From: a bacterium
Lineage (GTDB): Bacteria > Verrucomicrobiota > Verrucomicrobiia > Opitutales > Opitutaceae
NCBI GenBank assembly: GCA_021782105.1
Contig: JAJXVO010000008.1
Coordinates: 1-34,573 of the forward strand
Length of the DNA stretch: 34,573 nucleotides
Reading direction: 5' to 3'
This document shows, piece by piece, positions 1-30,093 of this stretch; position 1 is the first letter of the stretch, and every line of letters starts with the position of its first letter. A program made the position numbers and the translations under genes. The notes under the pieces are model-generated. The model made no database searches. It was not told where the DNA came from and worked only from the letters and a program-made list of their open reading frames with translations.

Positions 1-1164
1 CACGTGCGCGTCAAGATGAGCCGCCGCTACATCCTCGCCATCGGGCGCAGCCGGCTGGGCATCCGGCACGACGGTTCCATCGAGGAAGAGCGCGTCCGGC
101 TCATATTCATGCTGATCGCGGGCGAACAGGCCCGCGACTATCTTCAGGTGCTCGCCTGCATCGCCCGCCTCCTCAAGGAGCAGGAGCTGGTCGAGGCGCT
201 CGCCTCGGCTCCCGACCTCGACGCCCTTCAGGAACGCCTCGTCAACAGCCTCGGCGGCATCCGCCCCGTGCAGGCCCTTCACAACAAGGTCAACCGCCTG
301 ATGCAGCGAGAGGCCGAACGCGTCGCCAAGGGCACCGACTGCCGCTACCTGATGGTTTTTGGCGACACTTTCATTGGCGGGGTCGAACCCGGCGCGTTGG
401 TCTCGTCGATGCGGACAATTCTGGTCACGCGCAATCCCGTCGAACCGTCCGTCGACGATTCGAAATCGGATTGGATTGCCACGATCAGGGTCCGTTCCTT
501 CTCCCGCCAGCGGCTGGCCCAGCTCCGAAGCGCGCTGCTGGTCGCGCTGATGAGGGGCGCCGTGAATTTCAACGATCGCATCTGCTGTCTGGGAGGAATC
601 ACGGGGAGCAACCAGTTCGACACGCTTGTCGTGGTCGACGTCGAGCGGGAATTCCAGACGCTTTTGACGGGCAGCACCGATTTGCTGCCGCCGGATGTCA
701 CACCCGAGGTTCTTGAGCGAGCGGTGGCCGTCGCGACTGAACTCGCGGTCGAGGGACGCGAGGGGCGCCCGATTGGCTGCCTGATGGTCCTGGGCGATCA
801 CGAGAAGGTGGAGAAGCTGACCAAGCCCCTCGTCTTGAATCCATTTTATGGTTACAAGGAGGAGGATCGCAACATCCTCAATCCCTTCATGGACGAGACC
901 ATCAAGGAATTCTCGTCGCTCGACGGAGCCTTCATCATCCGTGGGGACGGCGTCGTGGTGTCGGCGGGAAGCCTAATCCAGGCCACTGACGTTGAGCACA
1001 ACCTGCCGAGCGGTCTGGGCTCCCGGCATGCGGCTGCGGCTGCGATCTCGATGGTGACACGCTGCATTGCCATCGTGGTGTCGTCGAGCACGGGCCAGGT
1101 GACGCTTTTTCGCCGCGGGGTCATGCTGCCTCTTACGGAAAAGAAGATGTCGGCCAACGCCTGA
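1..1164 (+). CDS. PTS EIIA-type domain / pyruvate-kinase-C-like segment / diadenylate cyclase (DAC, DisA_N-like) fusion protein, 5'-truncated by the window edge
   Basis: The frame is open to base 1. The first codon (cac, His) followed by VRVKMSRRYILAIGRSRLGIR...VRLIFMLIAG...YLQVLACIARLLKEQELVEAL matches the C-terminal part of type-2 EIIA domains. The C-terminus DGAFIIRGDGVVVSAG...LPSGLGSRHAAAAAIS carries DAC-type DGA and G(T/S)RHxxA motifs. The track's GTG start at 4 is probably an edge artefact. Confidence 0.82.
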   Translation, partial: HVRVKMSRRYILAIGRSRLGIRHDGSIEEERVRLIFMLIAGEQARDYLQVLACIARLLKEQELVEALASAPDLDALQERLVNSLGGIRPVQALHNKVNRLMQREAERVAKGTDCRYLMVFGDTFIGGVEPGALVSSMRTILVTRNPVEPSVDDSKSDWIATIRVRSFSRQRLAQLRSALLVALMRGAVNFNDRICCLGGITGSNQFDTLVVVDVEREFQTLLTGSTDLLPPDVTPEVLERAVAVATELAVEGREGRPIGCLMVLGDHEKVEKLTKPLVLNPFYGYKEEDRNILNPFMDETIKEFSSLDGAFIIRGDGVVVSAGSLIQATDVEHNLPSGLGSRHAAAAAISMVTRCIAIVVSSSTGQVTLFRRGVMLPLTEKKMSANA

Positions 1165-27346: not shown

Positions 27347-28234
27347 GTGCAATCCATCGCCGCCTTCGCTCCCGCCAAGATCAATCTCTTCCTGGCCGTC
27401 ACGGGTCGCCGCGACGACGGTTATCACAATCTCGTCTCCGTGGTCGCGCCGCTGGATTTCGGGGACTCGCTCCGATTCGAGCCGGATGCAAGCGGCGTCT
27501 GGGCCCTCGAGTGCGATGCCAGGGATATGCCATGCGACGATTCGAATCTGATCATCAGGGCCGCCCGGCTTTTTTGTGCTCGCACGGGTTGGATGGGTGG
27601 CGGCCGGTTTCTGCTTAAGAAACGCATTCCGATGGGCGCCGGGCTTGGCGGGGGAAGCAGTGATGCGGTGGCTGCCCTGCGCGTGGTGAATGTCGCCGCG
27701 GGCCGGTTACTGACGGATGTGCACCTCGCCGAATTGTCTGCGGAGATCGGATCCGACTGCCCCCTGTTTTTCTCGTCCGCACCTGTCGTGATGCGCGGCA
27801 GGGGAGAGCGCATCGAACGACTGCCCTCGGAGGCGGCGCAACGGATCTCCGGGCGGGCCCTGCTCGTGTTCAAGCCCCCCTTTGGAATCAGCACGCCCTG
27901 GGCTTACAGGACGCTCGTGGCCGGTGCGCCCGCGTCCTATTTGCAGGCGGAACTCGCGGAGGCGAAGCTGGCGCGGTGGATGGACGCACCGGACGCGCCG
28001 GTGGAGGCGCTGCTTTTCAATTCCTTTGAGCAACCGGCATTTCACAAATTTCCTGCGTTTCCCGCTCTCCTGGATGAACTTCACCACCGCTTCGGTGCGA
28101 CGTCCCTGATGAGTGGGAGCGGCAGCGCATGCTTTGCGTTTGTGCCGCCGGATGCCGATGTTGCCGCGTGGAGTACGGCGATTCGAAATGCCTGGGGAAG
28201 CGGCGCTTTCGTGCAACACGTGCAGATCGCCTAG
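27347..28234 (+). CDS. ispE: 4-diphosphocytidyl-2-C-methyl-D-erythritol kinase
   Basis: AFAPAKINLFLAVTGRRDDGYHNLVSVV; KKRIPMGAGLGGGSSDAVAAL; MSGSGSACFAF. GTG start preceded by AAGGAAG. Confidence 0.93.
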   Translation: MQSIAAFAPAKINLFLAVTGRRDDGYHNLVSVVAPLDFGDSLRFEPDASGVWALECDARDMPCDDSNLIIRAARLFCARTGWMGGGRFLLKKRIPMGAGLGGGSSDAVAALRVVNVAAGRLLTDVHLAELSAEIGSDCPLFFSSAPVVMRGRGERIERLPSEAAQRISGRALLVFKPPFGISTPWAYRTLVAGAPASYLQAELAEAKLARWMDAPDAPVEALLFNSFEQPAFHKFPAFPALLDELHHRFGATSLMSGSGSACFAFVPPDADVAAWSTAIRNAWGSGAFVQHVQIA

Positions 28235-28329
28235 AATTTTGGGGCATTTGGAGATCAGTGTTGACCCATCTGCGGCCGGGAGCGTTATTCGGCGGCGCCA
28301 GCGAGTCCCGTGTTGGCGTGCCAGATCGT

Positions 28330-30093
28330 ATGGAAGCTCGTAGTCATCAAGAGTTCGTCGTGCAAGGCATCGCCGCCTCAAAGGGGATCGCCTACGGGCA
28401 GGTCTTTGTTTATCTGCAGAGCAATGTCGAGGTGCCCAGTTACGTGGTCGACCCGTCGCGCAAGGAGGAGGAGATCCGGCGCTTTGAAAAGGCGCTCGTC
28501 GTGACGCGCCAGCAGATCCAGAAAATCCAGGAGGAGGTGGCGCGCAACCTCGGGCAGAATGAAGCGGCGATTTTCGATGCCCACCTGCTCGTGCTTGAAG
28601 ATCAGGCGCTGCTCTCCGAGACGATCCGGGCATTTGAGGACTCGGGCAAGAACGTCGAGACCTGCTTCCATTTTGTGGCAAAACGTTACATCGAGGCCTT
28701 TGCCGCAATCGATGACGAATACTTGCGCGAGCGAGCGGCCGACCTGAGGGATGTCACCCAGCGCGTGCTCCAGAACATGCTCGGCCAGTCGACCTCGAGC
28801 CTGAGCCAGCTGGTCGACAAACGCATCGTGGTCGCCAACGACATCAATCCTTCCGACTCGGCGTCGATCGACCGCAGCCAGGCGCTCGCGATCGTTACGG
28901 ACACCGGCAGCAAGACCAGCCACGCGGTCATTGTCGCGCGCTCCATGAAGATCCCCGCCGTCGTGGGCGTCGGCGACCTGACCAGCCGCGTCCAGGAGGG
29001 CGACTGGGCGATCGTCGACGGATACGACGGGGTCATCACCATCAATCCGACGGAGCAGACGCTATTTCGCTACGGCCAGATCCGTATCCAGAAAAACAGT
29101 TTCGAGCAGCGTCTGATCGAGGCGAATACGCAGCCTGCGATCACGCTGGACGGGGTGTCGGTGTCGCTGATGGCGAACATCGAGAAGACCGAGGAGGCCG
29201 TGATGGTGAAGGACTATCGCGCCGAGGGCGTCGGATTGTTTCGGACCGAGTATCTGTACCTCAGCTCCGCGCGCATGCCCAGCGAGCAGGAGCAGTTCAT
29301 CGCGTACAAGTCGGTGATCGACGCGGTCGCGCCGCAACCTGTGGTGATCCGCACGCTCGATCTGGGAGGCGACAAACAGTTCACCGGCAAGAACGACCTG
29401 TTCCCCGAGGAGGACAATCCCTTCATGGGGTTTCGCGCCATCCGCTTTTGCCTGGAAAACGTTCCGATCTTCAAGGAGCAGCTTCGGGCGATCCTCCTTG
29501 CCAGCGCCTTCGGCAAGGTGCGGCTGATGTTCCCGATGATCAGCGGAAGCGAGGAGCTGGCCCGCGCGATCGTGTTGTTGGAGGAATGCAAGGAGGAGCT
29601 CAAAACCCGCGGTCAGGCCTTCGACCGGGAACTCGAGGTGGGAACCATGATCGAGATTCCCAGCGCTGCGATGACGGCCGACATTCTCGCGCAGCAGTGC
29701 GACTTTTTCAGCATCGGCACCAACGATCTCATTCAGTACATGATCGCCATCGACCGCGTGAACAACCGGATCGCGCACCTGTACGAACCGACGCATCCCG
29801 GGGTGGTTCGCATGCTCAAGCGGATCGTGGACGAGGGGCATCGCGCGAAAATTCCGGTGGCGGTCTGCGGGGAGATGGCCGGCGATCCCGTGTTCGTTCC
29901 GCTTTTGCTCGGGCTTGGAGTGGATGAGCTGAGCATGACGCCCCCCTTGATCCCGGCGGTGAAATACTTGGTGCGCTCGATGAGCATGGCCGACGCGGTC
30001 AAACTCGCGGAGAAGGCGCTCACGATGAATTCGGCGAAAGAGATCTTCGCGCTTTGCGACGAATTCTATCGCACGAGGGTGAATGTCGGATGA
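28330..30093 (+). CDS. ptsI: Phosphoenolpyruvate-protein phosphotransferase (PTS enzyme I)
   Basis: GIAASKGIAYGQ; TGSKTSHAVIVARSMKIPAVVG phospho-His region; GVGLFRTEYLYL; IRTLDLGGDKQ; GTMIEIPSAAMTADILAQQCDFFSIGTNDLIQYMIAIDR. Confidence 0.97.
   Translation: MEARSHQEFVVQGIAASKGIAYGQVFVYLQSNVEVPSYVVDPSRKEEEIRRFEKALVVTRQQIQKIQEEVARNLGQNEAAIFDAHLLVLEDQALLSETIRAFEDSGKNVETCFHFVAKRYIEAFAAIDDEYLRERAADLRDVTQRVLQNMLGQSTSSLSQLVDKRIVVANDINPSDSASIDRSQALAIVTDTGSKTSHAVIVARSMKIPAVVGVGDLTSRVQEGDWAIVDGYDGVITINPTEQTLFRYGQIRIQKNSFEQRLIEANTQPAITLDGVSVSLMANIEKTEEAVMVKDYRAEGVGLFRTEYLYLSSARMPSEQEQFIAYKSVIDAVAPQPVVIRTLDLGGDKQFTGKNDLFPEEDNPFMGFRAIRFCLENVPIFKEQLRAILLASAFGKVRLMFPMISGSEELARAIVLLEECKEELKTRGQAFDRELEVGTMIEIPSAAMTADILAQQCDFFSIGTNDLIQYMIAIDRVNNRIAHLYEPTHPGVVRMLKRIVDEGHRAKIPVAVCGEMAGDPVFVPLLLGLGVDELSMTPPLIPAVKYLVRSMSMADAVKLAEKALTMNSAKEIFALCDEFYRTRVNVG

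Follow-up and report, generated by a model that had tools for sequence, protein, structure and literature searches.

An EIIA domain of the phosphotransferase system fused to a DacZ-type diadenylate cyclase in Opitutales: a candidate link between PTS phosphorylation and c-di-AMP

Can the phosphorylation state of the phosphotransferase system (PTS) be passed on directly to the synthesis of c-di-AMP? This question is raised by a gene at the very beginning of a 34,573 nt stretch of DNA from a bacterium of the Opitutaceae (Verrucomicrobiota), which is called the window here. To our knowledge, little is settled outside the Firmicutes about the signals that govern c-di-AMP production. PTS-Ntr and c-di-AMP each have a role in regulating K+ homeostasis, and the bacteria concerned have been studied separately.

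Positions 1–1164 of the forward strand form an open reading frame of 387 codons that lacks the N-terminus and ends with a TGA stop codon at 1162–1164, so frame and coordinates had been read correctly in the first-pass annotation of this DNA. The source is a draft genome (G000, 4.04 Mb in 431 contigs), and the gene is truncated because the window begins at the first base of contig C80. The missing part is present on contig C178 of the same genome: when this contig is reversed, its terminal 147 bases match the first 147 bases of the window with a single mismatch. C178 adds 65 codons 5′ of the His codon that opens the window (1–3, forward strand; His66 of the full protein) and results in the joined context GVALPHVRV. 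This codon had been proposed to encode the phosphorylated His of the EIIA domain, and both the join with C178, which places it in an LPH motif, and its conservation in the alignment bear this out. The joined frame comprises 452 residues from the first Met and reads MRLDQLI...TTYLGNGVALPHVRVKMSRRY. The complete protein is a soluble protein of about 450 residues with the EIIA domain at its N-terminus. The idea that the part upstream of the window adds a membrane or antiporter module to the same protein had to be given up: the EIIA domain begins at residue 1 in the joined sequence as well as in relatives, which leaves no place for such a module.

Downstream of the cyclase gene the window contains a ribosomal protein L33-like gene (1243–1407), and this order is kept in many relatives. 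In two distant members of the order a DUF362-like gene (L022:800–1963, L037:7898–9004) directly precedes the cyclase gene in the same orientation; the DUF362 Pfam match is weak and below the cut-off in both cases. A second copy of the cyclase region is found on contig C373 of the draft genome (L023) and shows 82% DNA identity to C178, which suggests that another related genome is present within the same bin.

Three Pfam domains were detected in the window fragment, all of them above the curated cut-offs. Positions 1–240 (forward strand, residues 1–80) encode the C-terminal half of a PTS_EIIA_2 domain (PF00359, profile positions 63–141 of 144, E 1.2e-7, 32.2 bits versus a cut-off of 27). They are followed at 289–660 (forward strand, residues 97–220) by DacZ_P, a probable sensor domain that is PK_C-like (PF21755, E 5.9e-23), and at 745–1122 (forward strand, residues 249–374) by the DAC diadenylate cyclase domain (PF02457, E 8.5e-23, 80.7 bits versus a cut-off of 27). 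The fusion of an EIIA C-terminal half to a DAC domain was thus recognised correctly from the letters. Lack of a PF00359 match and lack of an IPH context 5′ of base 1 had been named as findings that would speak against it; PF00359 was found, and C178 supplies the motif as LPH. In complete relatives the PTS_EIIA_2 domain is matched over its full length (E 4e-13 to 2e-25, 50–90 bits). The description of the middle region stands in part: it is PK_C-like, but the Pfam family is DacZ_P, and the similarity to PK_C is only remote. Foldseek, applied to a predicted model, confirmed the resemblance to DAC and to pyruvate kinase and revealed nothing further. The AlphaFold model itself is weak (pLDDT 63.5, with the EIIA domain as its poorest part), too weak for a coupling interface between EIIA and DAC to be read from it.

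A gene that is split over two contigs, in a bin that holds a second related sequence (C373), may be an assembly or binning artefact. However, the junctions between EIIA, DacZ_P and DAC lie inside the window without a change of frame, and relatives, single-contig genomes among them, have this fusion too. A homologue was found in 37 of 38 relatives, mostly as a full-length frame of about 450 residues. Among named genomes 531 relatives were detected; the best 80 of these 531 were all near-complete matches with the same fusion, and the titles of these best 80 refer to Opitutae/Opitutaceae or to unspecified Verrucomicrobia. Members across the order have the same three Pfam domains, with DacZ_P below the cut-off in L041. 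The relatives, including those with single-contig genomes, refute an artefact, and we attribute next to no probability to it.

The arrangement extends beyond the order. In a sample of 390 genomes of the phylum, DacZ_P was detected in 67, mostly from this order. Two families outside the order (f40 and f83) have the EIIA-DacZ_P-DAC arrangement including the phospho-His, with DacZ_P below the cut-off in f83. A tree built from the DacZ_P-DAC part sets the fused proteins apart from the stand-alone ones (support 96/85), and the stand-alone branches are long. L129, a sequence truncated by the end of its contig and not covered in the EIIA part, falls into the fused group. Judged from these sequences, a single fusion event appears to be the simplest reading. 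In G280 a further gene lies 5′ of the EIIA-DacZ gene on the same strand (L131:4258–5001), in which a Zn_ribbon_9 (C4) domain is joined to a second EIIA_2 domain, and the two adjacent EIIA genes could compete for phosphate.

Does the EIIA domain have the features of a phosphate acceptor? The phospho-His in its LPH context is present in 29 of 30 aligned members of the order and in all four fusions outside the order. The remaining member (L039:6524–7882, G027) has Tyr in this position and reads IPY instead of LPH, a natural variant in which His phosphorylation is impossible. Among solved structures the fused EIIA domain is nearest to PtsN/EIIA-Ntr (E 1.9e-15 with a profile). These data also bear on the main rival view, in which DacZ_P carries most of the control over the cyclase, through a small metabolite or through oligomerisation, while EIIA is a dock or an oligomerisation module and its phosphorylation is of minor importance for catalysis. 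Elsewhere in the phylum L126, L127 and L130 are DacZ proteins that have no EIIA, so that DacZ_P-DAC is probably functional by itself; in pyruvate kinase, effectors are bound by the PK_C fold (PMC6741144), and pyruvate kinase was among the Foldseek matches. On the other hand, conservation of the phospho-His within LPH extends to identities as low as 42% and to the distant fusions. A passive dock needs no phospho-His, and its conservation therefore speaks against this explanation, which we regard as rather unlikely.

The genes for a phosphate relay are present as well. The Enzyme I gene (ptsI) is located at 28129–30093 on the forward strand of the window; the EI domains do not set in before residue 79 of the frame, and the true ptsI start is therefore probably near position 28333. 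EI was found in all 19 genomes tested and HPr in all 15, and the HPr of the source genome carries the site GIHARPA. The census covered the EIIA_2 and EIIA-man families and, for permeases, PTS_EIIC (PF02378); PTS_EIIC was found in one of 15 genomes and EIIA-man in none of 19. The one genome with EIIC (G009) has EI, HPr and EIIA matches beside EIIC on contigs C17 and C25, and these clusters probably represent a true sugar PTS. The fusion contains the sole EIIA_2 domain of G028 (one contig, 2.6 Mb) and of G159 (two contigs); the source genome has further EIIA_2 domains besides the fusion.

On the cyclase side, both DAC motifs that had been noted in the fragment are present and intact, DGA at 922–930 (fragment residues 308–310) and GSRH at 1018–1029 (fragment residues 340–343), both on the forward strand. 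Among the 30 aligned proteins DGA is kept with one DGG and one DGS variant, and GxRH is found in all. A third motif, (V/I)SEE, is known from CdaA, where the second Glu binds the metal and the first contributes through its main chain; in Listeria CdaA the metal is bound by Glu124 of this motif (PMC7288161). The window protein reads VSSS at this position, with SSS in place of SEE at 1081–1089 (forward strand, residues 361–363): the conserved Ser is kept and both Glu are replaced. By its sequence the protein is classed under DAC and not under CdaA. SSS or a similar non-acidic form replaces SEE in nearly all Opitutales members. SES was found in the fusions of f40 and f83, in two of three stand-alone DacZ proteins and in an archaeal DacZ (Haladaptatus), indicating that the second Glu is Ser across the DacZ branch. 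The loss of the first Glu is, as far as the alignment goes, particular to most Opitutales. For DacZ of Haloferax, another archaeon than the one compared here, activity with manganese was reported (PMC6741144), and cyclase activity of the window protein is likely.

A dead DAC domain had been listed as a further point against the proposed function; the intact DGA and GxRH motifs weaken this objection, while the SEE motif does read SSS. In its strict form the objection means a degenerate DAC domain with hardly any c-di-AMP synthesis, or none, in a protein that is a PTS-controlled nucleotide-binding regulator. The non-acidic residues that almost all Opitutales members have instead of SEE agree with such a role; the two intact motifs, and the Ser in place of the second Glu in archaeal and stand-alone DacZ as well, do not. 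Moreover, of 16 genomes of the order, 15 have no DAC protein besides the fusion, the exception being G204, which also has a stand-alone DacZ. Some of the genomes have c-di-AMP riboswitches, and a PgpH-type phosphodiesterase was found in 17 of 19 genomes; in the source genome this protein has 7TMR-HDED, 7TM and HD domains. All this is hard to explain without c-di-AMP, and we consider a degenerate cyclase very improbable. The f40 and f83 genomes tested contain a second DAC protein of about 290 residues with a much higher Pfam score, which by its sequence is probably CdaA.

Which processes may respond to c-di-AMP in these bacteria? c-di-AMP riboswitches were found in two of 15 genomes. In G006 the riboswitch precedes the gene for the K+ transporter Kup (kup), and in G023 it precedes kimA, the product of which matches Bacillus KimA (E 1.1e-58). 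No c-di-AMP riboswitch was found in the window or in the source genome. In the source genome a separate gene for a Na_H_Exchanger protein that carries two TrkA_C (RCK_C) domains lies about 6 kb 5′ of the gene for the cyclase, and such an antiporter gene is found at a distance of 6–7 kb in five relatives (G006, G007, G009, G023 and G053); this linkage is absent in several other members of the family. RCK_C domains are established c-di-AMP receptors in KtrA and CpaA (PMC5575661). PgpH, the riboswitches and the nearby RCK_C antiporter are circumstantial pointers to potassium homeostasis.

Taking this together, we lean towards the view that a PTS-phosphorylated EIIA domain tunes the attached cyclase, which is the sole predicted c-di-AMP synthase, with an output on K+ transport. 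Phosphotransfer, cyclase activity, their coupling and the K+ targets are what we infer here. Phosphate from PEP would pass via Enzyme I and HPr to the EIIA residue His66. As there are few PTS sugar permeases that could accept the phosphate, or none at all, EIIA would act in signalling. The phosphorylation state of EIIA would then raise or lower c-di-AMP synthesis by the attached DAC domain, and DacZ_P could contribute a second input by binding a metabolite. A PgpH-type phosphodiesterase would remove c-di-AMP; the messenger may affect K+ transport by way of RCK_C proteins and, in part of the relatives, also by riboswitches. Our guess, weakly held, is that the cyclase is more active when the protein is unphosphorylated. 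Precedents exist: in E. coli the phosphorylation state of PtsN controls a K+/H+ antiporter (PMC11808508), and in Vibrio the phosphorylation of EIIA-Glc controls a c-di-GMP phosphodiesterase (PMC8846402).

Several observations count against tuning of the cyclase by EIIA phosphorylation. VSSS stands for VSEE, an argument softened by the Ser that DacZ-type proteins including the archaeal one also have there. One member has Tyr for the phospho-His, and G204 has a stand-alone DacZ besides the fusion. The other EIIA_2 domains of the source genome could be the main phosphate acceptors. Finally, riboswitches occur in just the two genomes, the source genome not being among them, and the linkage to the antiporter is patchy.

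How does the fusion relate to known systems? We take the DacD class of diadenylate cyclases to carry an EIIA domain, and published surveys of DAC proteins reportedly draw such a domain. DacD belongs to the scheme of Corrigan and Gruendling (2013) as used in PMC6741144, where the representatives listed come from Lacunisphaera, Coraliomargarita, Puniceicoccaceae and Opitutae, the same group as the fusion; the fusion is likened to DacD by this shared taxonomic group and not by sequence comparison. Like the fusion, archaeal DacZ/CdaZ (e.g., DacZ of Haloferax volcanii) has a DacZ-type DAC with a PK_C-like N-terminal region. The NCBIfam equivalog for archaeal DacZ (NF041371) gave E 4e-32, but with 111.5 bits versus a cut-off of 430 the fusion falls outside it, and in the archaeal DacZ that was compared Pfam finds DACZ_N and, unlike in the fusion, no EIIA. 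With EIIA-Ntr/PtsN the fusion shares an EIIA domain of type 2, the phospho-His in LPH/IPH, a permease-poor relay and a link to K+ (PMC11808508). PtsN, however, is a separate protein that binds its targets, whereas the EIIA domain of the fusion is covalently joined to the cyclase, and a full-length relative scored 43.9 bits versus the PtsN equivalog cut-off of 138.7. The Vibrio EIIA-Glc/PdeS pair resembles the fusion in that the phosphorylation state of EIIA controls a cyclic dinucleotide enzyme (PMC8846402), but it involves another EIIA family, another messenger, a complex instead of a fusion and a phosphodiesterase instead of a cyclase.

In the literature accessible to us, searches for EIIA or PTS together with diadenylate cyclase returned no experimental study, and no DacD member was found described as biochemically tested. 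This kind of protein is already catalogued, because the DacD name covers Opitutae proteins and Pfam has DacZ_P. The fusion is accordingly a member of a catalogued kind, with a putative mechanism that is attractive.

The fusion joins PTS-Ntr-like and c-di-AMP regulation covalently in one protein, and a path from carbon and energy status to c-di-AMP becomes directly testable with this single protein. In some Opitutales the entire PTS may even be a signalling line with one output, in which a single EIIA domain within the only c-di-AMP synthase sets c-di-AMP; this is a tentative reading that we find possible but doubtful. If it is true, a PEP-driven phosphorelay would set c-di-AMP and so K+ uptake and efflux directly, and the permease-poor PTS of Verrucomicrobiota would have a role. 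Throughout one group of the Verrucomicrobiota, the fusion may be the place at which a PTS relay sets the messenger and, through it, the K+ balance.
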